NCBI RefSeq assembly: GCF_000151665.1
Contig: NW_013171838.1
Coordinates: 137,001 to 201,000, forward strand
DNA length: 64,000 nucleotides
Direction: 5' to 3'
Origin: Blastocystis hominis
Taxonomy: Eukaryota > Sar > Bigyra > Opalinata > Blastocystidae
Each line of letters opens with the position of its first letter. The stretch's first letter is position 1. The notes under the pieces were generated by a model. It was not told where the DNA came from. It was given only the letters and a program-made list of their open reading frames with translations, and did no database searches. Position numbers and translations under genes: made by a program. Below, in pieces: positions 18,214 to 64,000 of the stretch.

Positions 18214-19542
18214 ATGCTAGGCCTGAAGAAAACAACCAATTCTTTGTCAAAAAAGCGAAACTCCAGTTTCTCTCAGCAACGATATGCCGAGAACGAGAAA
18301 AGACGTTTGCTATCGATACCACCACTGAGCCCACGCCGTTCTATCCGTTTTTCCACTCTTCGAGTTCCTGAACCCACATCTTCCCAGACTTGCCTGAGTG
18401 ATTCTTCATTTGAAAATTCTATGTTGTTTCAGGTCCAAAAGTATGTCTTGGTGGATTTTCAAACAAAGGGTTGTGAAGCAAGTGTTTTCAGCTGAGAAAG
18501 GGGAATCGTTTCATATTTCGGATTTGAGTGTGGCATCTCAGCTATCTGCACACTGTCTACTCTCCATATTCGAAGTAGCTTTTCTCTACGCCAATCACCA
18601 CCAGATTCTTCGAACTCTCCATATCATCAACAAAGTCGGTGATTCCTTCATTCGGGAGCCCCCTCGAAGTCTTCTCTCTTTTCTCAGCGCACTTCTTCCC
18701 GTATCATCCACCCTCGAGATCCCTTCGATGCTCGAAGCGCCCTCTTCGATCCTCCCCATAGTCCATGGAATCCTTCCTCGTCCGAACGCTGCCTATCCCT
18801 TCTCCCTCAACCCTTCCTTCTACCAGCCGCCCTTCTCTCCCGGTGAATCTCCGCTTCTCACCGAGCAGCGAATCAATCCAGACAACCTCCCTTCCAAAAC
18901 CTCTCGCTGCCACACTGATCCGAGATTGGACGAAGCCAAGACCGCGGAGTTTTGGTCCGAAGACCTCTTTCTCTCTTCGGCTCTTCCGCTCATCGCTCTG
19001 CTCACCGTTAAACTCGCTCTTCGAGACTATCAAGTCGCGGTCGCTGTTCTTCTGGATCACCTGGAAGGCGTTCAGCAGCTCCCTGGAGTGAGTAGGGATT
19101 GGATGGTGGATTGAGGACAGATCTGTTCGCTGCCGTTCGATTTGTTGTGGGGGTGTTGCGGCAATGTGCTGTGATCTCCTCGCCGAACTGGGATTTTCTG
19201 TCAATGCAGGGGTTTACCGAGAATACGATTATCGAATTGGAGGGGGATCTTCGGGTGGGGATTGGAGGTTGGTGGCTTTGTAGATTTCGCTGAAAGGAGT
19301 CGATGGACTGAATTCTCTGATTGGACAGAAGGGAGAAACGTCGGTGGAGATCATGAAGACGCGTCTGTTCTGTCAGGCTCTGATAGAGCAGAATGTTACG
19401 CAGCCTAGTCAAGTTTCGTCTTTGGTAAATTCGTATTTTGGAGAGGGAGAATATCTTCCTTTGAATGTGGTGGAGGATGAGTTAAAGACAATGGTTAGTC
19501 AGGTGTTAAAGTGTTATAAAGAGTTTCTCATTCGTTCTATAT
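18214..19542 (+). CDS. Unassigned helical protein; stop probably made by polyadenylation
   Basis: ATG 18214 opens a basic, Ser-rich N-terminus. A 35-nt intron (GTGATTCTTC...TTTCAG) near 18.4 kb and a 29-nt intron (GTAGGGATTGG...GACAG) near 19.1 kb join the frames into a protein of roughly 390-400 residues, rich in amphipathic and hydrophobic helices (for example LTVKLALRDYQVAVAVLL). A further intron of about 60 nt or a more complex join is needed near 19.25-19.33 kb, so this part is uncertain. The last exon reads through to TAG 19592, but TGTTTGTT lies at 19547-19554. Cleavage after T19542 would give ATA-TAA. I do not recognise the family. Minus-strand open frames over 18704-19412 are shadows of this GC-richer exon. 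Confidence 0.6.
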
Positions 19543-19546
19543 GCGG

Positions 19547-19554
19547 TGTTTGTT
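19547..19554 (+). terminator. TGTTTGTT polyadenylation element
   Basis: It lies four bases after T19542 of the in-frame codon TGC. Adding A residues after that T makes a TAA stop for the unassigned gene. Confidence 0.65.
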
Positions 19555-20071
19555 TTAGAGTTGTTGAGAGTACGATGTATCGAGATAAGTAGGTCTAATG
19601 GCGATAGTGAGTCTATTCTCTAGTTATATTCCTATTGGTACTTGAGTTTATGGTATTATGGTCAAATGTTCCCTATCCTCATGAGGCAGACACAGTATTT
19701 AAATTCTATATTCTATTATCATTCCACTCGGAAAATAATACTTCACATACTTTCATCTACTAATCTCTGGTAAGTGTTTCAATTTCATAATCCCATTCAC
19801 TACTTATGTTACCCAGACCATAAAAGCAAAGCATGATAGGCTTATTCTAAAGTAATGAATCAATTTTTACCCAATGTGCTTGTATTTGAATTTCAATACA
19901 CTCTACACTCCCCTCCCTTTTCATTTGAACCGTCTTTTGTATATGTACTCAGAAATATACAAATTACAAATTACCTTAATTATTATACAAGCATTTTGAT
20001 TACCCCCCTCCATGATAGAGATTGACGGCCAATCGTTTGAATTCTCCACTATTTCATTGACGATTCAAGCT
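19555..20071. other. Intergenic region upstream of the eL8 gene
   Basis: No gene seen. It should hold the eL8 promoter and 5' leader. C/T-rich stretches such as CTCCCCTCCC (near 19.91 kb) occur, but I cannot assign sites. Confidence 0.45.
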
Positions 20072-20878
20072 ATGTCTTCGGTATTTTGCTCGCTTCTATC
20101 TCTAATATCCAGACTAAGGCTAAGGACTCTGCTAAATCTATGAACCCCATCTTTGCTGCTACTCCCAAGAACTTCCGCATTGGAGGAGATGTTCTGGTAC
20201 GATAGCGCTCCGTTCGGCCTAATTTCATAGCCTAAGAAGGATCTCTCCAGATTCCTGAAGTGGCCCCGTTACGTGATCATCCAGAGACAGCGTAAGATTC
20301 TGAGCCAGCGTCTGAAGGTTCCTCCCACCGTGAACCAGTTCAGCCATGTGTTGGACAAGAACCAGGCTGCTGAGGTGTTCCGTCTGATGAACAAGTACGC
20401 TCCTGAGACGGAGGCCGAGAAGAAGGCTCGTCTGGAGGCTGCTGCCAAGGCGAAGGCTGAGGGCAAGCCCGTGGAGGAGAAGCGTGCTCTGGTTGTGAAG
20501 TACGGTCTGGACAACGTGACGAAGCTGGTGGAGCGCAAGAAGGCCAAGCTGGTTCTGATTGCCAACGACGTGGATCCCCTGGAGCTGGTGATGTGGCTGC
20601 CCGCTCTGTGCCACAAGATGGGCGTTGCGTACGCGATCGTGAGCGGCAAGGGCCGTCTGGGCGCTCTGGTGCACCAGAAGACCGCTACTTGCGTGTGTCT
20701 GACGGGAGTGAACCCTGAGGACGAGGCGGCGCTGAACTCGCTGCAGGAGAGCTTCACCACCAAGTACGCCGAGAACAAGAAGTGGGGTGGCGGTATCATG
20801 GGACTGAAGACTCAGCGCAAGCTGAGCATTCGTGCCGCTGCCATCGCTGCTGAGAAGGCCAAGAGAGCTTCTCTCTAA
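20072..20878 (+). CDS. RPL7A: 60S ribosomal protein eL8 (RPL7A/L7Ae family)
   Basis: The frame begins ATG-TCT-TCG at 20072, is interrupted at once by a 32-nt intron (20081-20112) and again by a 34-nt intron after GGAGATGTTCTG near 20.20 kb, then runs to TAA 20876-20878. The product is about 243 residues. It has the eL8 N-terminal PKNFRIGGDVLPKKDL block, the WPRYVIIQRQRKIL segment and a full L7Ae/kink-turn-binding domain (KLVLIANDVDPLELVMWLPALCHK is split here only for description: LVLIANDVDP, then ELVMWLPALC). Length and order match the family. It is part of the large ribosomal subunit. Codon use is more GC-rich than in neighbours, as expected for a highly expressed gene. TGTTTGTT at 20940-20947 suggests a 3' UTR of about 60 bases. 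Confidence 0.97.
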
Positions 20879-20939
20879 GCTGATTGTGAGGCTACATGAA
20901 GAAAGGAAGAAAGGAAGGGTGGAATCGTCATTGGTGGAG

Positions 20940-20947
20940 TGTTTGTT
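20940..20947 (+). terminator. TGTTTGTT polyadenylation element of the eL8 gene
   Basis: Exact octamer 62 bases after the encoded TAA. The rest of 20879-21213 between eL8 and the VPS13 3' end shows no gene. Confidence 0.6.
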
Positions 20948-21203
20948 CGAATACTGTGTGTGTGGATGGATATTTGGTGAAATGCCAAAATAGAATGAAA
21001 CCATTGGCAAGGATTTCTTTGACCAAGTGTGTATTGAACTACATTGAAGCAATCGACAATGATTTCAGAAAATAGAATCATCAATATCATTCATTCATTT
21101 TGTGAAGAATCATCTGTTCTTTCACTCCAAATCAAATCAAATCAAATCATTCCATTTCTTTCTATTTCAACAAATCATAACACACATCACTCATTTACTT
21201 ATC

Positions 21204-21211
21204 AACAAACA
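21204..21211 (-). terminator. TGTTTGTT polyadenylation element of VPS13
   Basis: On the minus strand the gene ends CAG-TTG-GAG-TGA, then CT, then TGTTTGTT. Cleavage after the T of TGA, four bases before the octamer, would also give a stop (TAA), so the transcript may have essentially no 3' UTR. Confidence 0.7.
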
Positions 21212-21213
21212 AG

Positions 21214-24200
21214 TCACTCCAACTGGACTAATGTATTCAACGAATATTGATATCTCCAAACTACAACTCATTCCTCCTCTCCAAAACTTACTATAACTGT
21301 GATTTCTTCTCTCATTCTCGATGATACCAATCAGTTTCTCACACCTCTTCTCAGTGTCTTCACTCTTCCCCATATTCACACACACTTCTTCCAATTTCAA
21401 CTGAATCCGATCCCATCGACTCTTGAACAACGAACAATTCTTCATACACACAAAACACAACTCCACATTGTTCGTATCTACATTCCTCCGACAATAAACC
21501 TTGTAGCAATCATCAAAAGCCACACAGCATCGTAAAACAATCTCCGATATTTTCTCCTGAATAATCAGTAAATGATTCCTTGTCGTTAATAGGTATGCGT
21601 TGCCTAAACAATACACCGAAATACAGTCTTCCATCTCATATTTTCCATCTTCTACACGAGACAACAACTCACGTCCCTTGCTGTAAATCTCATCAAAAGG
21701 CTACAATGAATCAAATCCAATTCAAATTCTTACCATTACAATGCCTCCGATCGCTACATTGGGAGGTTTGGCTCGCGTTTTGTTGACTTGTTCACCATCA
21801 AGATAATGTCGCATTGTTTGAAGATCGAAGAGAACCATTTGCAGAGGACGCGAAACCATTCCGATCGTTCCTATCATATACCACATCAATGTTGAATTCT
21901 GATTCCACAGCCTTCCAAACAAGGAATAGCGCTTTTTTGATTTGATGTAGGGACTTTGCAGTGTGATTTCCCCATGGAGCGTGTGTGGAATCGCTAAAAC
22001 GTTCACTTGTTGGAAGAATATGTAGAGCCAACTTGTGAGACCCATCATTACATCGATTCCAGACAGAGATATATTCACGATCTGTGCATCGATATACTCG
22101 CTCACATAGGAAAGCATGCGAACAAGTGACAATGTGCGATTGGACAAAGCGGTAATCACATTGTCTCCCAACGTTTTGATGTTCTGATAGAAGGAAGAAA
22201 CGAATCGATAGAGATTGCCAGATGTTTTGCTCTCCAAACCGATAAAGAGAAGACTGAACAGCAAGGACTTGCGATAGGTGGACAATAGCTGAGAAAGCAC
22301 ATAGCTGATTCGTCGAGGATATCGTTCATCAATACTGATCTGTGGGAAAACACACTTCAAATCCTGGATAGTAAAATAGTCGTAACTCGAGGACATAAAT
22401 TGCGATCCCAAAGCCAGAGAGATTGACAGATTGACAGGTGAAATCTTTAAGGACTGGATGCGAGTATGTCTCGATTCTTCGTATAGCTGAACTCGCGATA
22501 ATGGCTTTGAAATCATTGCAGACAGCGGGGTAGGAGGATTGCGGGTCCGAATATCTTGTTCAGCGTGATGAATCATCCATTTCACATAGGAAGGAAGAGA
22601 TCGGACGGTGGAGGGTAACTGCAGCTGTCTTCTACCGACTCTTTCGGGGTTATCGACGGTATTCCAACTCTGATAGAGCTGTAAACAGGTGACCAGCAAA
22701 TTGCTTTCGATACAAACATGAACAGGGAGGAGATGAAGATCGATTGACGACAGTAGTTTGCAGTTGCCGAACTCCTCCGTTTTCTTCTGCTGGAACTGTA
22801 AGCAAAGGGATACCGCCGCTCCTTGCATCGTTCCATTTCCTTTCTGGAACCGAAGCAGAACAGGATAGCGACTTTCCAAAAGCTGATTATCAATCTGCAG
22901 CTCTTGCAAAGCCAATCGCAAATCCATCACCGAACTCAGCTGGCTCTGAATGGACAGGCCTCGGATTGTGAGGCATAAGAAATCTTGAGAGCGCGGCAGA
23001 ATCAGCGTGGCGTGGACCTGAGGGATTTTCACCTCAAGCTCTATGGATCGACCGCTTGAAAAGAGAGTGTTGGACGACGGAACTTCGCTGAGTTTGAACG
23101 GTAAATAGCTTGAATAAACGCCAGAATGCTTGACCGAAACAAAAACAACATTCCGGAGCACTTCCACGCTCACTGAAAGCGTGGTACAGAAGTGATGGTC
23201 ATTCATCCAGTAGCTGAACTGCAGAACCGTTCGATTTCGACTTCGTTTGCAATTGATCGAGGTCGAATAGACTCGTTTGTTCGTCTGTAGAGAGAGAGGG
23301 GTTATCGCTGTTTGCGGTCGGTAGAACTGCAAGTTCAGAACTTGGGATTGATCCGAATCTGCCCAGCAGAATGGAGAAACGTCGAATGGCTCGATAATCC
23401 ACAAATCAGATGGGATGGGCGCGTTCTGATTTACAACGAGCGGGAAAATCGAGTGGTTGTCGATCACAACAGGAAGCGAGGCTTCATTCCACGAACAATC
23501 ATTGACGATAATGTTGATACATCCGTCCCACAGAATTTCAGTCACAACTTTGAAGTACACTCTCTCCTCTGAAAGTTGCTTCTTGCAGTAGATCAGCTTT
23601 TGCTTTCGGTTATGCTTCCATTCTGACTGACGATAATGATGCAACGGAATCACTGCAGGCGACCAATCAAAATCGCCGTTCAAACATCGTATCACAATCG
23701 CCTTTGATCGATTTTGCAGCAAAATCGGAGCAATCACTCCTTGGGGAACGATCGATCGCAAACTATCATCCACATTCACTTGCTTGATTTCAATGGGTCT
23801 CTCCGAGTTGTTGAAGATGTGGTACTTATCCTGAATCAGAATCACTTGGGTGTCTTGGAAATGAGGAAGAGACGGAATTCGGCTGATCGAAAGCGGATAG
23901 AGAGAGCGGCTTTGACCAAATAAATGCCCCTTGGTTATGAGATGAACATCGGTGGTTGAGAGATTATGAAGAGAAATCGGCTTTGAAAAATTCGTGTTCA
24001 CGCCTCGACATACAAAGTTCTACGCATTACCCTTCGCCACAAAGCCCACTTCTTCATTATTGAGAAGTAAAATCTCGACATCCTCGCTTCCAAAGTCATA
24101 TTCACCTCCGTTTCGGTTCCGAGGTAGTCCTTCCAATCCATTCACCTGGATTCCTTCGAAAACACGAACTTTCTCAGTGCGAAGGAAACGCAGCTGATAG

Positions 24201-32261: not shown

Positions 32262-32511
32262 CTCTCTTCCTAGGAATGTTTGATATTGTAATATAATAAT
32301 TCTGGAATTTTGGGAATTGCACTAATTGTGCATTCTCTGTTTTTCAACTCATAATCATATCTTGTGAACTTTGCAAGTAAAATTAAAAACAGAAATTGTA
32401 TTCCCTCATTTTCCAACATCGAATAGGATCAAATCCAATAATAGTGATTATACGGTTTTAGATAATAATCGAATTTTGGCTAAATGTATTATCTAATAAT
32501 AATAGCTTTCT

Positions 32512-33991
32512 ATGTTCAGCAAGCGCTCTACTTCTGTGGAAATTAATAAGTATCTAGACACATATCAACAAAATGAAGTATTACCATCGTAAGATCAAAA
32601 GTGGAAAGATCAGATGCAGAAAGACCTACCGATCGTTGAACTCTGCATTTATAAAGGCAACCAAGAAGAAGGAAGACGAAGTTACAAAGAAACTGGAGGA
32701 AGGGAACAAGGAAGACCATTCTAGGCATGAAGAATACTTATTGTCCTTTATTGACGAGCCACTGAAGACTCAGATCTATTCTTATATGTATGGTTTGAAC
32801 ATCTTTAACTCATCAGAAATCGTGGCTTAGAAAAGTGCCATACAATCGCTATGCTGAAGAAGGTAATGAAGGAGAAATCCTATTTCCAGTTTCTCGAGGC
32901 AATCAAAAAGTGTGTGAAACGTATCTATGTACAACCAAACATGTTGATCTACGATCCTTCCAACCCAACTGCTGCAGATTCTCTCGTTCTGATCTTCCTT
33001 CGACATGGAGAGGTGTCTCATTTCGATATATCTTGATTCTGCAGGGCTACTATGTGGAGAATGACGTCCGCAATACCTTTGAGTCGTTAGAATGCGTAGA
33101 TATGTTGGGTGTCACGGATCATTGTTTTGTGAATGATAAAGAACTATCTTGTGATCGTGTGAAAAGTGAGTTTGTCATCCCATCGTTATGAATAGTTGTC
33201 AGTAACTCCGCCTGTTTAGTGGGAATTGTCAACATGCTTCAAATCATTAGTACCGTAAAGTCGTTTTCTCGTATTTGGATCACCAACAGAACGCTCAACA
33301 CCTCCAAAGAAGAAATCGACAATGTCGTTTCGATCCTCCTCGCTCGCAGCTTACGAATCGAGCAGGAACGAGCGGAGCAGGAGCATCAAAAGCAGCTGCA
33401 AGAGCAGGAAGCTTTGCGCCATCAGCTTGCGTGCGTTGTGAAAGGGCAAGATGACGTGTAGAGAATGGAAGGACTATCTTATGGCAGGGAATTTGGAGAA
33501 AGTGCGCCAATACATTAATAATGGATTTGATGTGAACGCTGATATCGGCATTGTGAGGGACTCGGCTTGGATTGTTTTATTTTTTAGAATCGCAATAAGC
33601 CTCTCTTCTATGGCGTGATGTCCAAATCGGAGGAGGTGGTGCGTTCTCTCTGTGCGAGCGGTGCGAACTTGCAGGAGCAGAACGAGGACGGATTCACTGC
33701 GCTGCACTTCGCTACAAAGGTCAATTGGATTGAAGGAATTGGGCTTCTGCTGAAGCTCGGAGCGACGATGATGCCGGATAACGCTGGGAACTATCCCACA
33801 CACATCGCCGCGCAGGATGGAAACAACGAAGCGCTGCTATATTACGCGAAACTGCAGAAGGAAGGAAATACGTCGATCGATTTTAGGGTGAAGAACGCCG
33901 CAGGCGAGTCGGTGATCGATTGCTGCCCCGATTTGAAGTTGAAAAAACTCATCGTGCCGAAGGGCAATGAGGGATATAGTTTTGATCGTTA
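32512..33991 (+). CDS. Cytosolic C-linker / cyclic-nucleotide-binding / ankyrin protein without a channel pore
   Basis: ATG 32512 and several introns (31 nt at 32578-32608; 38 nt ending at ~32830; 32 nt starting GTGTCTCATTTCG; 30 nt starting GTGAGTTTGTC; 31 nt starting GTGCGTTGTG near 33.43 kb; 35 nt near 33.55 kb) give one continuous protein of about 415 residues. The N-terminal INKYLDTYQQNE...EEYLLSFIDEPLKTQI resembles the C-linker of HCN/CNG/EAG channels. The next part (KKCVKRIYVQPNMLIYD...LIFLRHGEG) resembles a cNMP-binding domain. A Gln/Glu-rich coiled coil and about three ankyrin repeats (DGFTALHFATK; NYPTHIAAQDGN) follow. No S1-S6 helices fit between it and VPS13, which starts only 250 bases away on the other strand. 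Whether it binds a nucleotide is unknown. The frame runs on to TGA 34091 across the SDHB gene, but TA at 33990-33991 followed by CGAG and TGTTTGTT suggests a polyadenylation-made TAA after SFDR. Confidence 0.75.
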
Positions 33992-34897
33992 CGAGTGTTT
34001 GTTGGAAACAAGAGAGAAGTGGCGATGGTGTAGAAGCTGCTTGATGTGGGCGATGGACCGACCTGGATTGAGGTTCTTTGGACAGGAGTGAGTGCAGTTC
34101 ATGATGGCGTGGCAACGATACAGCTTGTACACATCGTCCAAGTCACGAAGTCGCTCTTCTGTCATTTCGTCTCGCGAATCCACAATCCAACGATAGGCTT
34201 GTTGCAAAACTAAAGAGTGTTATATTCGATGCGAACAGAATCTACCCATCGGTCCCAAGTATTTGTCGGGATTCCACCAATAGGAAGGGCACGATGTGGA
34301 ACAGCAGTTACACAGAATACACTCATACAAACCGTCCAACTTGGCACGATCCTGCGGAGACTGAAGGTTCTCGGTGAGATATAAATCATCAGTGGGCTCA
34401 TTCTTCTGCTTCTTCTGCAGCCAGGGCTTAATCGAATTGTATTGTTCATAGCTGTTTGTCTGGTCAATCACGAGGTCCTTGATGACAAACATGTGAGGAA
34501 GTGGGCGAATGGTGATCGTCCTACAAAGGAAATGTCCTTGTGTGCCCCTTTGCTTACTTGGAACCCTTTCCAATCCGAGTCAAACACGCAAGGCCATTTT
34601 CTCCATTGATATTCATCGAGCACGATCCACAAATGCCCTCTCTACAAGATCTGCGAAAGGTGAATGTGGGATCGATCGTATCCTTTATGTGAAACAGGGC
34701 GTCGAGTACCATGCCTCCGCACCTACACAATCTTAAGACTACGAGAACACCCCTTACTGAGACAGATCGACTGCATAGCGCTCCATGTGAGGCTTGATAT
34801 CTCTTGCGGGATTAAAGCGATAAATCTCAAAGAGACGATACTGGGGCGCTGTGGAGAAGAGACGGAGTATTGAAGGACGTGCAAGCATCGGAAGCAT
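33989..34897 (-). CDS. SDHB: Succinate dehydrogenase iron-sulfur subunit (complex II)
   Basis: ATG 34897 opens a likely targeting peptide ([15 protein letters not shown]). Introns starting GTAAGGGGTG (near 34.73 kb), GTAAGCAAAGG (37 nt, near 34.55 kb) and GTAGATTCTG (36 nt, near 34.23 kb) are removed. The protein, about 270-280 residues, has the plant-type 2Fe-2S site ([21 protein letters not shown]), [10 protein letters not shown], the 4Fe-4S site ([12 protein letters not shown]) and the second cluster motif ([12 protein letters not shown]), then [13 protein letters not shown]. It passes electrons from succinate oxidation towards quinone in the inner organelle membrane. The encoded stop is at 33989, but T34015 plus CTCT plus TGTTTCCA suggests an earlier stop made by polyadenylation, trimming about eight residues. 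It converges on the CNBD-ankyrin gene. Confidence 0.95.
33996..34010. terminator. Bidirectional 3'-end element between the CNBD-ankyrin gene and SDHB
   Basis: TGTTTGTTGGAAACA gives TGTTTGTT to the plus-strand gene (33996-34003) and TGTTTCCA to the minus strand (34010-34003). On both sides a T lies four bases before the octamer in the phase that makes TAA (TA at 33990-33991 on plus; T34015 on minus). Confidence 0.65.
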
Positions 34898-35003
34898 GGA
34901 AAGCAAAATGATAATATACCTTGTCAAAAATACTTCTCCTTCTATTTGACACAAACACACAAATCTTTCAAGAGATTTATTCATAGGAAACGCAAAGAAC
35001 TGC

Positions 35004-35681: not shown

Positions 35682-36080
<399 letters not shown>

Positions 36081-36136
36081 GGATTGAGTCCGGGAATTGG
36101 AACTGAATCTGTACGGCGACCCTTATGCAACCGCTC

Positions 36137-36152
36137 TTTGTTACAACAAACA
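36137..36152. terminator. Bidirectional 3'-end element between eL43 and the membrane-protein gene
   Basis: TTTGTTACAACAAACA. The minus strand reads TGTTTGTT (36152-36145), four bases after T36157; the plus strand reads TTTGTT about 57 bases after the eL43 stop. Confidence 0.6.
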
Positions 36153-36156
36153 CGCG

Positions 36157-36914
36157 ATTCGAGTTTTGCGACCTTCTCCAGGTATTTGCTGAAAAAGCCA
36201 ATGCCAGGAAGAATACTGAGCAATCCCTTCAGAACATTCTCGATAAACTTCTTCTGAGGGTCCTCGACATCGAGAGTCACCTTTCTGCTCGAATGCACAT
36301 CTACCTGTCAACCAAACGAACGGCCTCCTCCTACACACTGACTGATAGGCAAACGCAAAGCACATGGTGATAGAAACTACATTCAACGACACTTCGTACA
36401 TCGATTTCCAGAAGGCTAGCAGGCAGTCTTTCGTTATGTGATGCAAGAAAGAAAGAGTACCCGTAATGCCGGAATAAGTCACATACATGAGATAGAGACG
36501 AGTAGGAATCGCGATGAGATTGGCCAGAAAGGTACAAGTCGAAGCAAGGGTCCAGGGAGTCATCTACCGTTTATCTCTCTGCAGACTCAAATACGCGCAT
36601 GTGGAAAATACCAACAATGCTCAGACACAGATTGATTAACCGACATCCCATTACTACTTTCATACATGCTATCATTGAGTTCGAAATCAAAAACTTACTG
36701 ACAAGCATAGAAGAACTCATGTTATTGAGACTCTATACGTAATTCCAACCAAGCATGTTGATACTGTATAGGAAAGAACAGTGTTGTACAACTGATAACT
36801 AGTGAAGCCCTGAACGACGACAACGGCAAAGTACAACAGAAGCAATACTCCTCTATGCTTTCTCGTGGGTTTTAACATATTTTCAAAGCTCTCTAGCTGC
36901 ACGTCCTGCGGCAT
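36157..36914 (-). CDS. Unassigned multi-pass membrane protein; stop probably made by polyadenylation
   Basis: ATG 36914. Introns of 32 nt (GTATCAACATG...), 30 nt (GTAAGTTTTTG...), 31 nt (GTATTTGAGTC...) and 34 nt (GTGTGTAGGAGG...) join the frames. The product, about 205-210 residues, has about four hydrophobic helices (LLLLYFAVVVVQGFTSY; CLSIVGIFHMR; FLANLIAIPTRLYLMYV; VSLNVVSITMCFAFAY) and an amphipathic tail (KKFIENVLKGLLSILPGIGF). No in-frame stop occurs before the frame runs into the last codon of eL43. T36157 followed by CGCG and TGTTTGTT would give GAA-TAA after cleavage. The size and tail loosely recall peroxisomal or ER membrane-shaping proteins, but I make no assignment. Confidence 0.7.
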
Positions 36915-37029: not shown

Positions 37030-37037
37030 AACAAACA
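37030..37037 (-). terminator. TGTTTGTT polyadenylation element of frataxin
   Basis: The minus strand reads TTT-TAG-ACT-TGTTTGTT. Cleavage four bases before the octamer leaves TA, again giving a stop, so encoded and poly(A)-made stops coincide. Confidence 0.65.
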
Positions 37038-37040
37038 AGT

Positions 37041-37587
37041 CTAAAACTTCAGGTCAACGCCAAGAAGATTCTTCAACTCTTTTGCCAGCAGACTGTTGAT
37101 GTCCTCGTTGACTTTGCGAGAATTCTTCACCCCGTCCATCTCGCCAACTTCATACCACTTTTTCGAGTTCAAATCGTACTCAAATCGCTTGGGACCACTA
37201 CTATGCCATCCGACCCAAGCACCTTACCTAATGGGAGAAGACCACCAAATCTGCATATTCGGAGATTGCTTGTTGATCACATAAGAACCCTTCGACCCCA
37301 TATTGATAGACAAAACACCGCTCTATTCTGATATTACTCACAGGACATCACTTACAGCAATGCTATAGTCCAAGTTATCAACATCATCGGCTACTTCATC
37401 CAGGGCGCTTTCAATCGTGGTCAGCTCTTCGTCCACCAGCTTGTTGTACTCCATGGCACTTCCAGGAAAGGCTCTATGGAGAATGAATCCTCCTGAGACG
37501 TTACGAGAAGAAACGTGAGGAAAAGGGAATACACGGTCTCGAAACAAGACGAAGCGCGCCGCCAAAACACCTGAGTGAGGAAAACAT
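37041..37587 (-). CDS. FXN: Frataxin (Fe-S cluster assembly factor)
   Basis: ATG 37587 opens an organelle-targeting-like leader (MFSSLRCFGGALR). The first intron is not fully settled (57 nt from GTCTTGTTTCG keeps the frame). Further introns (GTAAGTGATG..., ~35 nt; GTAAGGTGC..., 30 nt) lead to TAG 37043-37041. The mature part has the frataxin fold signatures: acidic first helix (LTTIESALDEVADDVDNLDYS), GSKGSYVINKQSPNMQIWWSSP, then SGPKRFEYDLNSKKW and a C-terminal helix. The acidic helix is the usual iron-binding and desulfurase-contact surface. It acts in mitochondrial-type Fe-S assembly. With SDHB 3 kb away, this supports an organelle that still makes and uses Fe-S proteins. Confidence 0.92.
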
Positions 37588-39888: not shown

Positions 39889-39896
39889 AACAAACA
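39889..39896 (-). terminator. TGTTTGTT polyadenylation element of PLK
   Basis: The minus strand reads CAC-TAA-TTT-TGTTTGTT. Again TA lies immediately before the four-base spacer. Only about 27 bases separate this element from the WBP4-like start codon. Confidence 0.7.
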
Positions 39897-39899
39897 AAA

Positions 39900-42254
39900 T
39901 TAGTGATTTCGACTTAGCGTAGTCACAATATCGGTAATATTATTTGTGACATAGTCAAGACGTCGTTTCAGATCATCTCTCCCCAACCCCACAGCCTTCG
40001 CCAACGGCACCGCCGTAATCATCCCAAACTTGTCCAAGTACGTAACATCATCAAACGGACACTCCAGATTCAGAATCGTTCCTCCCTCATACCGCACCTG
40101 GATCGCTCCCGTGCTCAGCATGATGATCGACGCCTCCTCTTTGATGAGCCATTTGATTACGAACGGCAAATTCTTCGCCGGCCCGCCTTTTGCGATGTCC
40201 TCCAGCTACTCCTCATTTCCCGACCCCTCGCTCACCTCCTCCTTCGAGATCTCGCGGTTGTTCGCACGCTCGTGGAACGTGGTGCGGAAATACTTCACCA
40301 GCGTGATTTTCTTGGAGATCTCCGCGGGGAAGTCGTCGATCGACCCCTTGTAAAGCGGAGGAAACTGCTGCGAGCGATTCCACTCCTTGATGGAGATGCG
40401 AGGGTGATACTCGTAGTACAGTCCGTTCGAACTCACCACGATCTATCCATCAGAACGTGGAAACGTGGAAACCGATGTTTTATCGTTGAAGAGCACGCCG
40501 ATGAGGCCGTTGCTGAACATATACGCGATTCCGTACTTGCGCGTGAAATCGTACTCGTCCACGATCCAGTTCTATTCATCACTCCAAACCCACAAAACGC
40601 ACCGCTGTGCGCGTCGTGCTGATCGCGTCCGCGTTCTTCACTACCCATCAAACCCTCACCTTCACTCCCACTCAGCAGCGGATGATGCATCGCCGTGTGC
40701 AGATTCGCCGCGTGTCCGATCAGCATCGGCGTCCCAGGAACGTCCTGATACCGCGATCGTTTCACCGTGATCGACGGCACCGTGCCCTCGGGCAGCCCCT
40801 CGAAGGTCTCCTTGGCGGTGAGCCCGTGCGCTTCGAGGAAGGTCTGGTTGGCCAGATCCAGCCGGTCGTCCATTCCGCGCGCCTGGTGCGCCGTCAGCGA
40901 GAACCGGTTGATGTTGTTCTTCCCGTTCCCGTCGTAGTCGAAGTTGTAGTTCACGCCCGGCTCGCCCTGCGCGTGCAGCGTCGCCACACGCGAGTGCGGC
41001 TTCCCTTCCGCGAGCGGCAGCGGCTTCGCGAGGTCCGTCATGCGGACGCGTTTGCTGGCGGGGTCGGCTGGAGGTGAGGCAAGCAACGGGCTGCGGACTG
41101 CTGGATGGGTCGGCCGCGGAGTCGCTGGAGGACGTGGAGCGGTGGACGCGCTGGAGGACGGGCGTGGGCTCGGTGGCGGGGCGCGAGGTGAGGAGGTAGG
41201 GCTGGTAGAGGATGTAGGGAGGGAGCGATTTGGGCGGACTGATGGGCGAATCGGTGAAGAAGGGGTGCTGGAGCATCTGGTCGAGCGACAAGCGCGACGC
41301 AGGGTCGGTGGTGAGAATGGAGCGGATGAACATGCGCGCTTGATGGCTCACGAACCGGTCCTTGATGGGGAAGCTGAAGTCGTTCTGACGAATGTTCTCG
41401 TAGGTGCTCTTCCGGCTGCCGCCGTCGTACGGCGCCTTGCCGATGAGGAGCGTGTAGGTGATGACGCCGATCGCCCAGATGTCCACTTCGTAGGAGTACG
41501 CGCGCTTCCCCTCCGATTCCAAGATCTCCGGAGCGATGTAGTTCGGCGTCCCGCACATCGTCTTCTTGCGCTCGTTCGGCTCGCTGAGCTCCGTGGCTAG
41601 ACCGAAATCGCCCACTTTCACGTCCAGATTGTCATCCAGGAAGACGTTGCCCAGCTTCAGGTCTCGATGGATGATACGGCGGTTGTGCAGGTATTTTACA
41701 GCGTCGATGATCTGGAGCAGGAAATATTGAACCTCGGGCTCGGTCAAGTATTTGCGGTTTTTGATCAGGTGGCCCAATGTCTACAAAATATCAATTTTCT
41801 ATATATGCGCAAATACGTCGTGAGAACATAACTCTAAAATAAGGTAGTGATAACGATTATCTTCAAAGTGCTTGTACATGCGGCAAATGTGTTTGTGGTT
41901 TAATGACTGGTGAATCTTAATCTCGCTTTTAAACTACCCATAAGTCCAAGATCCCCAAACTTGCCTTTTCTAACTTATTGGGGCTTGATAAACCCGATTT
42001 ATCAACTATCTTGCCAGCATACCTCTTTCCGCTTTGAACACTTGTCAGTTCATACACAGTAGCAAATCCGCCCTACGCGGTCAGACCCAATCAATATCCA
42101 GAACCTTCCCCATTTGTTTTCCTATTCGATAGCGATCAACAACACGTGTTTTCGTCTCGTCTAACTCGGTAATGTACTTGGTATTGTCTTTCTTTACGAC
42201 GACTTCAACAGGCTGGGCACTAGAAACATCTTTTGGGTGGGGACGCTTTTCCAT
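39900..42254 (-). CDS. PLK: Polo-like kinase (PLK1 type) with two polo boxes
   Basis: ATG 42254. Exons are joined across about eight short introns, one of them GC-AG (41964-41934, 31 nt). The kinase domain has GKGGFATVYE, AGKIVDK (catalytic Lys), RDLKLGN, DFGLA and the T-loop ERKKTMCGTPNYIAPE with the activating Thr, nearly identical to PLK1. A Ser/Thr/Pro linker follows. Polo box 1 reads NWIVDEYDFTRKYGIAYMF...GVLFNDKTS, keeping the ligand-contacting Trp. Polo box 2 reads FVIKWLIKEEASIIMLS...IQVRYEGGTI...FDDVTYLDKFG. The strand that carries the His-Lys phosphate pincer in PLK1 (QDHTK) here reads YEGGT. It should control mitosis at centrosomes/kinetochores or their counterparts. It ends at TAA 39902-39900. 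The upstream gene on the other strand starts 196 bases away. Confidence 0.94.
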
Positions 42255-55099: not shown

Positions 55100-55111
55100 T
55101 TTTCACTTTGC

Positions 55112-55127
55112 TTTGTTTTCTCAAACA
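55112..55127. terminator. Bidirectional 3'-end element between TRA1 and the RGN-repeat gene
   Basis: TTTGTTTTCTCAAACA. The minus strand reads TGTTTGAG (55127-55120), four bases after T55132, which is the first base of an in-frame TTG. The plus strand reads TTTGTT 13 bases after the TRA1 stop. Confidence 0.6.
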
Positions 55128-56662
55128 CACAAAGCCACTAAGGTATCCAAAACCGGCGCAAATCGTTCCGCTTGGCTCTTGGAACCCTCCGATTCGGTCT
55201 CCTGCGATGGTTTCTGAGCGGTTTTGAACTGCGTTGCGCCTTGTTGTTGTTGTTGATTCTCTTCTTTCTCTTCTTTCTCTTCTTCATCTTCATCGCGATA
55301 TTCAGGTAACTTCGCGATGCTTTCTTCTCGTGCCTCTACGGATTCTCTGCGGTTTCGTCGTCTCCTTCCACTCCGTCGATTCCCTTTCGGATACAAATCC
55401 GCTTGAATTCCCGCGCTTCCCCCAACACTTTGATTGGTTTCCACGTTTCCACCTTGAGGGCGTGCGTTTCGACGCCGTTGATCGCCGGAACCTCGCTGTT
55501 CTGAGGCGTTTTGAGGCGTTGCATTGCTCGAATTCCCCTCGGTTCTACCGTTTCCCTGGTTTCCCTGGTTTCCCTGATTGGAGCCAGTGGTGTTTTCTGT
55601 GTTTTGTCTTCGCTGCTTTCTCCCATGTTCATTTTCTCCGTGATTATCTTGGTTTCCACGGTTTCCACGGTTTCCACGGTTTCTCCGATTGGATCCAGTG
55701 GATCCATTGGATCCATTGGAGTTCTGCGTGTTTTGATCTCCTTTATTTCTTTCCTCCTTTCCATCGTCCTGGTTTCCACGGTTTCCACGGTTTCCACGAT
55801 TGGATCCATTGGAGTTCCCCGTGTTTTGCCGCCCTTTCCTTTTCCCATCCTCTCGATCGCCCCGGTTTCCCCGGTTTCCCCAATATCCCCGATTTGACTG
55901 GCGATGCGCGGGCTTAAAGAAATGCTGGTTCTGGAGTTTCAGGTTCGTCGGTTCGCTCTGACTGGAGCGAGATTCCGACGAGTCGCTGTCCGAACTGGAG
56001 GAAGTTTCACTCGAATCTTCGGAAGAAACGGACGTGGATTCGGTTTGTGTGCTCGATTGACTGGTTTCCTCAGAAGATTCGGTAGTGCTGGGAGTTTCGT
56101 TTTGGGAGGGGAGTTTTGTTGATTGAGGGGCTTCGAATCGAACTTCGGCGGTGGAATTATTGTTATTGTTGTTATTCGAAACGACCATCGGAGGGATCAT
56201 GCCATACACGGGAGCGAAATTGATCATATGGTTATAATCCATGGGAGCACTATTGATCTGAATGGGTTGCATGTATTCCATGGAGGGATTAGAGACAACA
56301 TATGGGATTGAATAGTTTTGGGCTGGAGCTGCAGAGTAGGAAGGGGGTTGTTGGAAATTCCCAGTAGGATACATGGGAGGCTGTTGAGGAACACTCTCAG
56401 CATAATCATGAGTAGGGTAGAAGGGTGCAGCATCAACATTTAATTTTAAGCTACTCGCTGACGAGCTACGATCATTTGAATTGCTCATTTGAGTATTTGT
56501 GGTCACGGGACGTCGTTTTTCTGAAGAGTGAGCTTTTTGGGTTCTTTGTTGTTTTCTAGGATTCCTCGAGTTATTTTTGTCTGTATCGATTTCTGAATTC
56601 TCCGGAGCCAAGATGGGAATTCCTGCCGTTAACTCATTATCACTTCTATATGTAATTTGCAT
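55121..56662 (-). CDS. Disordered RGN-repeat, Gln/Asn-rich protein (possible RNA-binding)
   Basis: A 513-residue intronless frame from ATG 56662 to TGA 55121. The N-terminal third is Pro/Tyr/Gln/Asn-rich (PTGNFQQPPSYSAAPAQNY) and holds an Asn run (NNNNNNN). A Ser/Glu/Thr tract follows (~180-245). The centre has three to four degenerate repeats of about 35 residues, each starting with NRGNRGNRG and ending in QNT..SNGSN-like text. The C-terminus is Arg-rich, then acidic, with a QQQQQ run. No folded domain is seen. RG/RGN repeats with prion-like flanks are common in RNA-binding condensate proteins; that is an inference. If cleavage occurs after T55132 the protein loses its last three residues. 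The gene is divergent to the CCCH gene. Confidence 0.8.
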   Translation of the reverse strand: MQITYRSDNELTAGIPILAPENSEIDTDKNNSRNPRKQQRTQKAHSSEKRRPVTTNTQMSNSNDRSSSASSLKLNVDAAPFYPTHDYAESVPQQPPMYPTGNFQQPPSYSAAPAQNYSIPYVVSNPSMEYMQPIQINSAPMDYNHMINFAPVYGMIPPMVVSNNNNNNNSTAEVRFEAPQSTKLPSQNETPSTTESSEETSQSSTQTESTSVSSEDSSETSSSSDSDSSESRSSQSEPTNLKLQNQHFFKPAHRQSNRGYWGNRGNRGDREDGKRKGRQNTGNSNGSNRGNRGNRGNQDDGKEERNKGDQNTQNSNGSNGSTGSNRRNRGNRGNRGNQDNHGENEHGRKQRRQNTENTTGSNQGNQGNQGNGRTEGNSSNATPQNASEQRGSGDQRRRNARPQGGNVETNQSVGGSAGIQADLYPKGNRRSGRRRRNRRESVEAREESIAKLPEYRDEDEEEKEEKEENQQQQQGATQFKTAQKPSQETESEGSKSQAERFAPVLDTLVALCV

Positions 56663-56967
56663 TCCAACATCCTTTACAGAACAAAATTTGACTTAATCTG
56701 ACTCCTTTCTGGATACTAAAATGTAAATAAGCTCGTTTGTCCTTACCCTTCTATATTTCTTATGGAGCACGGTTTGTAATAATTCTCCTTCCATTCCAAA
56801 TATAGATTACTTTAAATCTATTCAAATAGATATGTGTCAATATTCAACAATTTCTCCCCTATTATCACAATTCCACATATATGGACATTTCTCCATTGAA
56901 CTTTGTGGTTTTTTATTCTGTGTTGTAATACTATCACGAAGCTTGTCACTTCATGAATATAATGTAA
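56663..56967. promoter_or_regulatory. Divergent intergenic region between the RGN-repeat and CCCH genes
   Basis: 305 bases between two divergent start codons. AT-rich, no open frame of interest. It presumably holds both promoters; no site can be named. Confidence 0.45.
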
Positions 56968-58743: not shown

Positions 58744-59107
58744 TGCGCGGAAGAAAGGCGAAGTGGGACGCGAATGAGTGAATCAAACAATCAAACAAAC
58801 AAACAATCAGTCAGTGAAAACCATCAAACAAATCAACAATAACAAATATCACAAAAGACACTTACTTTTTTTCTTTTTTTTCTCTCTCTCTCTCACACAC
58901 AAAACCAAACAAAGCTCATTCCATCACATCCCTGCATCGATCCAACCGCATTCTGAAGGCGACGAATCTTGATTCATCAAGCACTCTTCGCCTTCCATTT
59001 GCAATCTATCTACCTATCTATAAATCTATAAATCTATCTATTCATTTATCCATCCATTCATCTATTAAAACCAAATCCCATCTCTCTCAACAAAAACCAT
59101 TTCCTCC
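58744..59107. repeat. Low-complexity 3' region: (AAAC)n, (CT)n and (CTAT)n tracts
   Basis: AATCAAACAATCAAACAAAC (58785-58815 region), a T/CT tract with TCTCTCTCTCTC (58867-58895), and CTATCTA/CTATAAAT/CATCCATC-type repeats (59005-59065). No gene. Probably the 3' UTR of the CCCH gene. Confidence 0.7.
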
Positions 59108-59123
59108 TGTTTGTTCTCAAACA
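59108..59123. terminator. Bidirectional 3'-end element between the CCCH gene and the GT31 gene
   Basis: TGTTTGTTCTCAAACA: the plus-strand octamer TGTTTGTT (59108-59115) directly abuts the minus-strand octamer TGTTTGAG (59123-59116). On the minus strand the GT31 TAA is followed by AGAG and then the octamer. Confidence 0.7.
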
Positions 59124-59127
59124 CTCT

Positions 59128-60315: not shown

Positions 60316-60332
60316 TCCCCACTGCTGGTTTC

Positions 60333-60340
60333 AACAAACA
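60333..60340 (-). terminator. TGTTTGTT polyadenylation element of the PDI/ERp29-like gene
   Basis: The minus strand reads CTG-TAA, then ATCGAAT, then TGTTTGTT, so the 3' UTR would be a few bases long. Confidence 0.65.
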
Positions 60341-60347
60341 ATTCGAT

Positions 60348-61976
60348 TTACAGCCCATTTCCATAAAAATCGTCCAGCGTATCCTCGACATAGTCTCGCA
60401 GCGAGAGCAATGACAGCTTCTCCTTGACAAGAATTGGCTTGTCCTTATTCTGTCCCTTATAATAAAAGAACACCGCAGGGTAGCTCTCCACATGGAATCG
60501 ATACTACGCTCGACCCCTTCCTTCTCCCCTACGCAAAAATCGGGATAGCGTTTGCAGTTAAGATGGCCGACGATGATTCCGCGCACGCCGCGTTTCGCCA
60601 GATTCGTCTGCACTCAATACATCCCACACGTCCCCTACGAAGACGGTAACCGCGTCCTTGCAGGTCTCGCAGGCGTCCGCGGTGAGGAGGAGAAGCAGAT
60701 GGTTCTTCGAGAGGAGGAAATCGATGTTCCACGGATGAATGCTCACGAGATTCTTCCACGTGTTGATCTTTTCGAACTGGTGCACCACGTTCATCCGCGC
60801 CGATAACGCCTTGTTCCTACGCCTCACCACGCTTCCGCACGTCGACTCCTTGCTGCCTGGACGCGAGCTGCGAAGCTCCTGCTTGACGTAGGAGAGCTCG
60901 GTCAGAATCGCCTGCGCGCCTTCCGTGACGATGCGCTTCATCAGCGAGAAGTAGCGAGCCGCTTCCGGGATGTTCGGCGCGAGGTCCTTTACCTGGCGCA
61001 TAATCGACTTGCGGTAGTCTTCGTTCTCCTGCATGAATCTTCTCCGCTATTCTCACGATGTCCATGAAGCGATGGGCCAGAACGTCGAGCTGCTGGTTTC
61101 GGCCGTACCATTCGTCGTAGCTTCCGCCTGACAGAAAGCGCGTCCCTGCATCAAAGTCGAGGAGGGAAGCGTACCGCATTTGCCGTTCATGTAGGCGATG
61201 ATGTTCTCGCCATGAGCACTCGTTAGACCCTCATCGACCGCAAACTCGGCTCCAGGAGCGAGGAAGCGGAAGGAAGGATAGGAAGACACGAAATGAATGC
61301 TACAGAGATGGGGGTAGAGAGAACAATCGACGTAAGCGAAGAGGGAATTGCGAGTGTTCTACAAGGGAGGCGGAAATGCCGGAGGGATACGCGGAATAAA
61401 ACGGCGTCTGTTAAATAGCCGGAAATGAGATTCAGACAGTCGGGATTGGATGGTTTACAGAACAGAATGAGAATGTTTCGGTCTGAATACTTTGTTTTGA
61501 GATGACCATAGTTATGATCGGTTAAGGGGAAAATATACTCCTTGCGAGGAGTATACCCAGTCACACTTTTGATCCACTCATAAGTAGGAAGGTTCTCCCG
61601 GTTCACGTAAGGAGAAGAGACGCCATGCACAAACAGCCGGTACTGCGGACTCTCCACATCTTCCTTAATTTGGTACAGTTCGTCGAATGTCTTGTTAACT
61701 CCCACATTTGTAGCAGCAACGATCACATTACTGTACTCGACATAGCTATATGGCATTTTCCATAAAGTAAACAGTTCTAAATCACAACTACGACACTTTT
61801 TATTATTCCACATAGCAATAATTGTGAGATTCGACTGGATGTATTCATTAAGCTTTTCTTCACTCAATGAATTAATACCACTAAACATTAACCCTCCCAA
61901 CTAGCCCCTTCTTTTTCGTATAGTTTTGAGCAAGCACGGTTACAACACAAACTAGCAAAAAAACAAGGACTTTCAT
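60348..61976 (-). CDS. Multi-thioredoxin PDI-like protein with an ERp29-C-like domain
   Basis: ATG 61976 opens a signal peptide (MKVLVFLLVCVVT). A first intron ending at GGGCTAG leads into the first thioredoxin-like domain (LTIIAMWNNKKCRSCD, CxxC = CRSC). A second follows (ILILFCKPSNPDC; then a 32-nt intron; then YVDCSLYPHLC...SSYPSFRFL with cis-Pro). Next comes an all-helical ERp29-C-like part (YDEWYGRNQQLDVLAHRFMD; AARYFSLMKRIVTEGAQAIL; ARMNVVHQFEKI). A last thioredoxin-like domain carries CETC and VESYPAVFFYYKG. The end is TAA 60350-60348. No KDEL-type signal is seen (it ends DDFYGNGL). Expected role: disulfide formation or chaperoning of secretory proteins in the ER. Some internal exon joins (61.03-61.2 kb, 60.65 kb) are approximate. 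Confidence 0.82.
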
Positions 61977-62147
61977 GGAGAAAAGGTATATAAGAATTAT
62001 GCAAAATAGGTTGAACGAAAAGGTTCCAATTTCTGGAATACACAAAATTCATCGATTTCTATTAACCGTCAAGTGGTTATGATAATTATGCAAACAGTTC
62101 GCACCTCACAATAAACAACAAACGGAAGGGAACTGAGTAATAAAATT

Positions 62148-62819
62148 ATGCTGCTTATTGCTGTTCTTCTCTTTGCATTATCCTATTGTGTATAAGCTAT
62201 TTGTGGCGTTGATTTTAGGAGACTATTGGAGTGCCCCATATAGATGGTATTAGTTATCAAGAACACTTCAAGGAGTCTCCCATTTTGGTTGTCTATGTAT
62301 ATGATGAGGTATTTTGTAATTGGCACATTTTATTTTAGTTGGTGGACAGATATAGGGCAGGCTTGAAAAAGTATGCGGAGATTATTTCGGATGTGAAGTT
62401 TGACATAGAGCCGAAATACATGGCTGTACCACTTTTGAAGTTAAATCCATTTTTAGATCAATTGTGCAGATAACCATCTTATCTGTGAGAATAACGGTTT
62501 TACTTCGAGACCTGCCGTCCTTTTCATTAAGAAGGGACAGCCTGTGGAGACTTTTAAGGGCGATTTGAACAGCTAGTACTTTTTATTTTGTTTTGTATTA
62601 TCTAGTGCGTTCCGCTCTTTCCTTCGTTCTCATCTTTCTTTGAACACCAGTGTGGCGAATAGTGCTCAGTTCCGTCTTTTGCTTCTGATTGTGATCTTAA
62701 TTGCACTGGTGCTTCTCTTTTTGAAGACAATCCGTTCCACTTATGTGGATAGTGCGAAGGCTGATTTGGAGGAACAGGCTCCTCTTGTCAGTCGCAGTCC
62801 TGAGCAAAATGCGGAATAG
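62148..62819 (+). CDS. TMX-like single-pass thioredoxin-fold protein without CxxC
   Basis: ATG 62148 opens a signal peptide (MLLIAVLLFALSY). Introns of about 30-31 nt (GTATAAGCTATTTG..., GTATTTTGTAATTGG..., GTACCACTTTTG..., GTACTTTTTATTT...) join five exons, ending at TAG 62817-62819; about 180 residues. The thioredoxin-like part reads ESPILVVYVYDELVDRYRAG...INCADNHLICENNGFTSRPA, keeping the cis-Pro loop (SRPAVLFIKKG) but without the CxxC pair at the expected place. A membrane helix (LLLLIVILIALVLLFL) and an acidic cytosolic tail follow. The layout resembles TMX-type PDI relatives. A redox-inactive, chaperone-like or adaptor role is inferred. It is divergent to the PDI/ERp29-like gene (171 bases apart). 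Confidence 0.8.
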
Positions 62820-62840
62820 GCATAGAATCGTGTGGTTATT

Positions 62841-62853
62841 TTTGTTGGAAACA
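62841..62853. terminator. Bidirectional 3'-end element between the TMX-like and PDI genes
   Basis: TTTGTTGGAAACA. The minus strand reads TGTTTCCA (62853-62846), four bases after T62858; the plus strand reads TTTGTT about 20 bases after the TMX-like stop. The core TTTGTTGGAAACA is identical to that between the CNBD-ankyrin gene and SDHB. Confidence 0.6.
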
Positions 62854-62857
62854 CGAT

Positions 62858-64000
62858 ACAAGAGGTCCCATAGACTCATATCAATATCCTCATTGTCGCT
62901 TTCTTCCTCGACCACTGGAATTGACACAGTGGTGCTTAATTTGTGCAGATAGTCTTGTAACTCTTTCATCTCCTCGTCGGTCTGTGGGTCGTACTGGTGA
63001 AGCATCCGCCTCCACTTTTTGAGCTATTCTTTATCCTTCCTGTTTAAATCTCCACCTTTCCTTCAAATCTCCGTTTACCCGTATTCTCATAGGCATCTGG
63101 AGTCACTGGATCCCCCTCTTTCCGTTGATCTCTGAAATGGTATTCCTTTCCGGAATTCTACTTTGGAATTAGCATCAGATATCGCTGATATCCATACGTA
63201 TTCTTGCCAAATGTGACTTGCTTGATTCTCTAGCCATCACCGTTCCTGAAGTGGAATTACAGATTGAATATTGCACTGTGGCGTTTCCTCTGCGTCTACA
63301 AGTCGTGGAGATCTTCCACTCATCCAATAGAATTGGTGCTTTGCCTTTGTAACAAACAATCCACAGTTCCTCCTCTTCGTTTTCTTCCTTTACCCCATTG
63401 CTTGCATTCTGCTTCTGCTTCTGCTTCTGCTCCTTCACCCATCGAATCAGCGACTATTTTATCACCTCCCTCCCCACACTTCTACTTTGGTTCGCCAGGA
63501 CTTTCGGCTTCGCGGATACTCGACGATTTCCACCTTCTCTCCCTTCCTCACATACAGCACGCTGTGGAAATACGACGCCTACGCCTCGCTCCCTCCTTCC
63601 ATTCCCACATAGATCTGCTCCACATCGATCTCGTTCTCATTCACCGAATACCGCAAGAACGTCAGCGACGGATCGTCCTGCAGCGCCGCCGCCACCTTCT
63701 CGAACCGCTTGCTCATTTTCTTGCAGTGGTCGCAGACGTTCGAGTAGAACTGGATCACCACGTCGTTCTCGCTCTGCATGACTTCCTTCTCGAACTCGCT
63801 GCCCGCGACCTCGCGCACCAGCTCGCCCTCCTTCGGCGTGATTCGCTTGGATCGCATGAACGGCTTGACGGCTCCGCTGAGAATGTTCTGGCCGAAGAAG
63901 ACCAGATTCTCCATCGGCTCGTCCTCGATCGACGGCCACTCGTATTTGAAGTGATACCCGCGGATCCGATGCACGGTGAGCAAGAACGGATAGTCCGGAT
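62858..64000 (-). CDS. Protein disulfide isomerase family protein, C-terminal part (runs off the window)
   Basis: The gene enters from the right edge in the middle of a domain. The visible part starts with a PDI b'-like end (WPSIEDEPMENLVFF...ILSGAVKPFMRSKR) and an a'-type thioredoxin domain with VVIQFYSNVCDHCKKMSKRF (CDHC active site). Introns of 30 nt (GTGGGAATGGAAGG...) and 32 nt (GTAGAAGTGTGGGG..., GTGGAGATTTAAAC...) lead to a Lys/Gln-rich linker (KEQKQKQKQ), a further segment with KGKAPILLDEWK, and a C-terminal acidic stretch (EEESDNEDIDMSLWDLL). One join near 63.53 kb and one near 63.15 kb are unresolved. The frame would overlap the TMX-like gene down to 62697. T62858 plus ATCG plus TGTTTCCA suggests a polyadenylation-made TAA after DLL. 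No KDEL-type ending. Role: oxidative folding in the ER. Confidence 0.78.

Follow-up and report, generated by a model that had tools for sequence, protein, structure and literature searches.

Gene ends in a 64-kilobase (kb) stretch of the Blastocystis hominis genome (contig NW_013171838.1, positions 137,001 to 201,000 of the forward strand; this whole stretch of 64,000 nucleotides is called the window, and positions are counted within it) are read here as following two rules jointly: the published code in which the poly(A) tail makes the stop codon, and the sharing of a two-way poly(A) element by converging genes. The probability of this joint reading is put at about 0.85. The DNA is, judging by its letters, most likely nuclear DNA of Blastocystis subtype 7 (ST7). 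In the proposed mechanism, the element downstream of gene ends is TGTTTGTT, or a close variant of it with the core TGTTT, and the transcript would be cut exactly four bases before this element and then tailed; where the cut leaves an in-frame T or TA, the tail would supply the rest of UAA. Converging genes would in many cases be served by a single composite element, TGTTT...(4-9 bases)...AAACA, whose two cores, one per strand, would each place a cut four bases ahead of the arm on that strand. Between the last base retained on one strand and the last retained on the other, 22-27 bases would lie (four, the element and four), and one or both stops may be tail-made. With the cuts 22-27 bases apart, the mature mRNAs of both genes would not overlap. 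These face-to-face elements are the part that goes beyond the published code and that we did not find described; they are judged real as sequence features and are probably two-way signals.

Two converging genes in the window, encoding SDHB (end at 34015, minus strand) and an ankyrin-repeat protein (end at 33991, plus strand), share the element TGTTTGTTGGAAACA, and by their sequence both stops would be tail-made. The face-to-face elements of the window and the tail-made ends next to them are as follows.

33996..34010, both strands: face-to-face element TGTTTGTTGGAAACA (15 bases), in which the plus octamer TGTTTGTT (33996-34003) overlaps the minus octamer TGTTTCCA (34003-34010) by one base.
33990..33991, plus strand: end of the ankyrin-repeat gene (Ank_2, 1.4e-13) with a retained TA, which the tail would turn into TAA; the next in-frame encoded stop ends 100 bases beyond the cut.
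34015, minus strand: end of the SDHB gene with a retained T, which the tail would turn into TAA; the next in-frame encoded stop ends 26 bases beyond the cut.
55114..55127, both strands: face-to-face element TGTTTTCTCAAACA; predicted plus cut at 55109, with an encoded stop ending 10 bases before it, and predicted minus cut at 55132, with a made stop.
55132, minus strand: predicted tail-made stop, T followed by TGTG and TGTTTGAG; an encoded stop ends 11 bases beyond the cut.
59108..59123, both strands: TGTTTGTTCTCAAACA, with face-to-face cores; a gene ends on the minus side alone, the Galactosyl_T gene, whose encoded TAA lies exactly at the cut (59128), and the plus flank is non-coding.

An earlier note on this DNA, which had described the recurrent gene-end code, missed that two of its variant octamers (TGTTTCCA at 34015 and TGTTTGAG at 55132) are the opposite arms of face-to-face elements that a converging gene also uses.

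Genome-wide counts, covering 40 contigs and 18.7 Mb, were used because the test with bare cores was only suggestive in a 264-kb sample composed of the window and two 100-kb stretches of the same genome (14 face-to-face cores at gaps of 4-9 bases versus about 6 expected, and 5 back-to-back). TGTTTGTT followed after 1-6 bases by the inverted core AAACA (TGTTTGTTN{1,6}AAACA) is found at 666 places in the genome, compared to 18 for the reversed-letter control of this pattern and 28 for the opposite order (AAACAN{1,6}TGTTTGTT). With the bare cores, TGTTT...(4-9 bases)...AAACA, there are 1239 face-to-face places versus 335 back-to-back ones, and the reversed-letter control of the face-to-face order gives 304. 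The excess of cores is about 670-900, with 571 (the count of a control word given below) or 335 as background, and is thus lower than the raw 1239. The 100 matches listed for the octamer pattern comprise 69 distinct strings and have inner lengths of one base (7 matches), two (19), three (22), four (7), five (33) and six (12); the scarcity of length 4 may reflect duplicates.

Alternatively, converging genes may merely lie very close in a compact genome, each with its own signal, the overlap of the signals being a by-product of shortening that brings no advantage. We give this explanation an even chance. Tail-made stops already show extreme shortening of 3' ends (PMC4159000), and the wider spacings, with AAACA 7-12 bases after TGTTTGTT (151 places genome-wide), likewise exceed the 28 places counted for the opposite order at 1-6 bases. 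The roughly fourfold drop from 666 places at 1-6 bases to 151 at 7-12 bases nevertheless indicates that tight overlap is preferred, although selection is not thereby shown. A stronger form of the shared-element reading is advanced tentatively and with slightly less than even confidence: several hundred converging gene pairs of ST7 (about 670-900) would each meet at one palindromic two-way poly(A) element that has been selected, with cuts 22-27 bases apart, non-overlapping mRNAs and often one or both stops made, so that some tail-to-tail genes would lack an encoded stop at either end. Any advantage of the sharing is inferred, as is the use of both cuts.

For an inverted arm that acts as a second poly(A) signal, a T is predicted on the opposite strand five bases beyond the arm, which is an A on the reading strand. 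The predicted T is present at 423 of the 666 places, compared to 213 of 666 for the position three bases further (p 6e-31), and the A was found in 18 of 19 elements that were fetched with their flanks. These 19 are all distinct places of the set C2 among the first 100 of the 666. In most of them the two flanks look like coding sequence: at three rising thresholds, a score for converging gene ends is passed on both sides by 15, 14 and 13 of the 19 elements. The opposite flank taken singly passes the lowest threshold in 16 elements out of 19 versus 21 of 81 octamers without an inverted arm (p 4e-6), a control set from which sites less than 600 bases from an end and sites with an inverted arm had been removed. 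Pfam was searched with ten predicted proteins, nine of them encoded in C2 flanks and the tenth next to 55114-55127 in the window, on its plus side; domains were found in six of the ten. Both sides were run for four pairs, of which one (L040) has a domain on neither side and three have domains on both:

pair L029: peptidyl-arginine deiminase-type domain and helicase C-terminus (Pfam).
pair L030: PCI and GHMP kinase (Pfam).
pair L039: helix-turn-helix and Cpn10 (Pfam).

No Pfam domain was found in the L034 protein, for which one side was run, or in the window protein. Separately, the tail-made stops in the face-to-face pairs L032 and L034 would give the C-termini CVIL and CSIM, which are possible prenylation boxes. 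C-terminal evidence of the prenylation-box type led Klimes to the mechanism (PMC4159000).

The complementary arms, with loops of 4-9 bases, could alternatively form a small RNA hairpin, in which the inverted AAACA arm pairs with UGUUU of the same transcript and presents the signal, no second poly(A) signal being involved. Such a hairpin is improbable. It predicts neither an opposite-strand T at precisely the fifth base past the arm nor converging genes, whereas both are found in the comparisons given above (423 versus 213 of 666; 16 of 19 versus 21 of 81). Moreover, the opposite arm has G as its sixth base in 55, C in 21, T in 19 and A in 5 of the 100 matches listed, and this rarity of A parallels the tail-closable ends of sixth-base variants, counted at the lower threshold of the codon score described below (TGTTTC.. 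12/233, TGTTTT.. 11/346, TGTTTA.. 0/135). On the position of the second T, the converging flanks and the sixth-base pattern, the hairpin was set aside as the main explanation.

Several observations weigh against the shared two-way element. With the A-rich word AAAGA in the place of AAACA, 294 places are found, the reversed-letter pattern TTGTTTGTN{1,6}ACAAA gives 265, and TTTGTN{4,9}ACAAA gives 571; of the 10 of these last in the sample, only 1 overlaps a TGTTT...AAACA element. Since these control words lie above the opposite-order counts, part of the excess reflects general T-rich-then-A-rich sequence around gene ends. The counts are made per octamer, with two-octamer elements counted twice and duplicated blocks included, and are inflated accordingly. 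The flank score is unspecific, being passed at 52% of 300 random positions, perhaps because random positions are often inside genes; the matched control of 81 octamers was therefore relied on. A clear gene end is missing on one side in four of the 19 elements at the lowest threshold and in six at the highest, and both cuts of every pair are predictions made from the letters only. In the window itself, coding sequence is found on both sides in only two of five core elements (gaps up to 14); at 59108-59123 and 3368-3385 a gene end is present on one side only, and at 12399-12409 on neither.

The underlying code was read from the letters of the window. The earlier note had listed ten gene ends at which a retained T or TA is followed by exactly four bases and an octamer, and this arrangement is present at 10 of the 10, although three positions need a remark: for the minus-strand TA sites the first base had been given, the last retained bases being 37042 and 39901, and the last retained base of the plus-strand ankyrin site is 33991 (33990 in the earlier note). 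The window contains 17 copies of TGTTTGTT, whereas 100 shuffles gave 3.07 on average and never more than 7. It had further been stated that about half of the ends have no useful encoded stop. This is correct: six ends have no in-frame encoded stop at the cut (19542, 33991, 34015, 36157, 55132 and 62858), the next one ending 11-161 bases beyond it, and at the other four the cut falls within an encoded stop (21216, TGA; 37042, TAG; 39901, TAA; 10403, TAG). At these four, tailing would leave or make UAA. The remaining ends, together with one absent from the earlier list, are:

19542..19554, plus strand: predicted tail-made stop, T followed by GCGG and TGTTTGTT; an encoded stop ends 50 bases beyond the cut.
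36145..36157, minus strand: predicted tail-made stop, T followed by CGCG and TGTTTGTT; an encoded stop ends 80 bases beyond the cut.
62846..62858, minus strand: predicted tail-made stop of a gene with an SLBP (histone RNA hairpin-binding) domain, T followed by ATCG and TGTTTCCA; an encoded stop ends 161 bases beyond the cut.
63351..63363, minus strand: predicted tail-made stop of a thioredoxin-domain gene, T followed by GGAT and TGTTTGTT; absent from the earlier note's list.
21204..21216, minus strand: end of a VPS13-like gene, T followed by GACT and TGTTTGTT; the encoded TGA across the cut would become TAA.
37030..37042, minus strand: end of the frataxin gene, TA followed by GACT and TGTTTGTT; the encoded TAG across the cut would become TAA.
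39889..39901, minus strand: end of a polo-like kinase gene, TA followed by ATTT and TGTTTGTT; the encoded TAA across the cut is an ordinary stop.
10391..10403, minus strand: end of a GT49-like gene, T followed by AGAG and TGTTTTGC; an encoded TAG lies across the cut.

Most of the gene names given earlier are borne out by Pfam matches, namely SDHB (iron-sulphur domains before 34015), frataxin (before 37042), polo-like kinase (a polo-box kinase before 39901) and GT49 (upstream of 10403). Two names hold in part: ankyrin repeats were found by Pfam in the protein that had been called CNBD-ankyrin, while a CNBD was not seen in its 409-residue model, and the VPS13 label has a VPS13_VAB match upstream of 21216 that, with 22.1 bits, falls just under the Pfam cut-off of 22.6. 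An SLBP domain was found before 62858, where the gene tracer had fused the upstream thioredoxin gene, which has its own end at 63363, into the model. The tail-made stop of this thioredoxin-domain gene would leave the C-terminus EEEEL, which might be an end of the endoplasmic reticulum-retention type. The models that end at 36157 and 19542 matched no Pfam family.

The phase at two of the ends depends on introns read by hand. At 21216 it is a 31-nucleotide GTAAG...TAG intron, where the automatic gene tracer picked a different last intron, and at 10403 a 31-nucleotide GTATT...TAG intron, where the tracer gave no model. Both lengths match the median intron of 31 bases in the published ST7 genome, as given in an excerpt of PMC3129679.

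SDHB serves as the best control among these genes: the alignment of its model to solved SDHB chains extends to residue 253 of 258, and to residue 256 with 1nek_B, the E. coli chain; it stops two residues before the end of 1nek_B. This fits an end at the predicted made stop, although read-through, which would add only few residues, is not strictly excluded by the alignment.

The spacing was quantified in the 264-kb sample, using a codon score derived from the long frames of that sample. A version of this score without stop alternatives gave weak calls, with 10 of 90 octamers coding up to the cut, and for this reason the test was rerun with encoded-stop alternatives and then with introns. A straddling encoded stop was counted as tail-closable, and sites less than 250 bases from a sample start were excluded, which left all 90 octamers. 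At the exact octamer TGTTTGTT with a spacer of 4, tail-closable frames were found at 17 of 90 octamers at a lower and 13 of 90 at a higher threshold. This spacer is the peak, with 0-9 of the 90 at the lower threshold for the remaining spacers from -3 to 12. For seven rearranged octamers the numbers were 9 of 224 (lower threshold; Fisher p 5e-5 against 17 of 90) and 3 of 224 (higher threshold), and three more control words gave 3/90, 0/27 and 1/40 at the lower. Tail-closable frames at this spacer are thus more frequent than expected by chance. Genome-wide, a T stands directly before the four-base spacer at 4298 of 7304 octamers (59%), compared to 1948 of 5456 sites of the reversed-letter control. 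The variants were rightly regarded as weaker evidence: TGTTTCCA is tail-closable in 4 of 31 cases at the lower and 2 of 31 at the higher threshold, TGTTTGAG in 2 of 13 at both, and TGTTTTGC in 2 of 18 and 0 of 18, respectively. A terminator-like pattern, the octamer followed by a run of T, had no match anywhere in the genome.

That mature transcripts have ordinary ends and run on to downstream encoded stops is very unlikely, for although such a stop lies only 11-26 bases beyond the cut in some cases (55132, 34015), the phase and spacer statistics, the SDHB end and the published evidence from expressed sequence tags of ST7 (PMC4159000) argue against it.

The composition of the four-base spacer is non-random among the 90 octamers of the sample, with G as first base in 0.42 and as second in 0.38, and T as last base in 0.67; the last value is inflated, since 7 of the 90 octamers sit in TGTT runs. 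Past the octamer, A makes up 0.56 of the third bases and 0.51 of the fourth. In the published view, the spacer is called non-conserved.

With regard to the subtype, the marker SB155, derived from isolate B, has one genomic site (forward primer, at most two mismatches), where both primers match exactly and the product is exactly 650 base pairs (bp). SB155 was published at 650 bp, and in the parts consulted of the source its text assigns the marker to subtype 7 and its table to clade VII (number 2 in the first column of the table) (PMC3977685). For ST7, Klimes 2014 mapped poly(A) sites in 2,419 genes and reported tail-created stops in 372 (359 UAA and 13 UGA), a change of UAG or UGA to UAA in 90, and the motif with at most two substitutions exactly four bases beyond the site in 2,333 of the 2,419 (PMC4159000). 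The corresponding number for subtype 1 (ST1) is 1,693 genes (26%), according to an excerpt of Gentekaki 2017 (PMC5608401). In reporter experiments with ST7 B, as described in sections of PMC6395660, mutation of the motif and two upstream T in the legumain 3' end lowered expression 324-fold, and a GAPDH 3' end without the motif gave 148-fold less; genes lacking the motif are unexplained according to the authors. Thus the earlier note correctly stated that poly(A)-made stops with this motif are known in Blastocystis, and its interpretation, in which TGTTTGTT sets tail-made stops from a constant distance of four bases, is supported by the sequence and by the published mechanism. What it had regarded as new, the fixed spacer, the phase and the variants, is already known for ST7: spacer, made stops and variants were all reported (PMC4159000), and with them the finding as first written.

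For the face-to-face elements, the main text of Klimes 2014 has no mention of shared or mirror-image signals of converging genes (PMC4159000), the words palindrom, convergent, bidirectional and tail-to-tail are absent from the portion consulted of the main text of Gentekaki 2017 (PMC5608401), and palindrom, convergent and polyadenylation are absent from the portion consulted of PMC3129679. No paper on Blastocystis convergent genes together with a polyadenylation signal was found in a search of mostly open-access main texts, which is a weak test.

Elsewhere in the window, an open frame of 1084 amino acids (92-3343, plus strand) contains a DNA_pol_B_2 domain (organellar/viral type DNA polymerase B, E 9.9e-17) and adjoins a stretch of 24-38% GC at 4-20 kb; it could be a mobile or viral-type element. 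Two adjacent frames at 13763-16603 (plus strand) have weak O-FucT matches, both under the Pfam cut-off, and together with a GT49-like frame at 10879-11445 they may make up a glycosyltransferase cluster within the AT-rich region. Nothing was found in the window by Rfam or by a tRNA scan, the latter in the bacterial setting.

The known code matters mainly for annotation, since gene ends without an encoded stop at the cut, six of ten here, would be mis-called by gene finders that require encoded stops. If the face-to-face elements are confirmed, they would end two genes in very little space and could explain some variant octamers, as the last bases in overlapping pairs (33996-34010) also serve the signal of the other strand. 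They would likewise provide gene finders with a rule to place both ends of a converging pair, and a direct test case for the handling of convergent transcription with about 25 bases between the cut sites.

Mitochondrial gene ends are set by other processing than the ends discussed here. In mammalian mitochondria, as cited in PMC4159000, the tail completes UAA too, whereas the present case concerns nuclear genes with a downstream sequence element. Among the closest known cases are the created stops of Blastocystis ST7 and ST1 (PMC4159000; for ST1, an excerpt of PMC5608401), which are found in the same genus, and most likely in the same subtype, with the motif TGTTTGTT at a distance of four bases; T or TA is likewise completed to UAA, UAG or UGA is changed to UAA, and variants of the motif are tolerated. 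The shared mirror-image signals of converging genes seen here are unmentioned in the main text on ST7 (PMC4159000). Convergent gene pairs in plants and yeast that use a common poly(A) region or have overlapping 3' untranslated regions (excerpts of PMC3032780 and PMC3900390) resemble the present pairs in that two genes end in one short region. Their transcripts overlap, as far as these excerpts describe them, while the predicted cuts in Blastocystis lie 22-27 bases apart and before the arms, so that no overlap of the mature mRNAs is expected, and the tail can make the stop.

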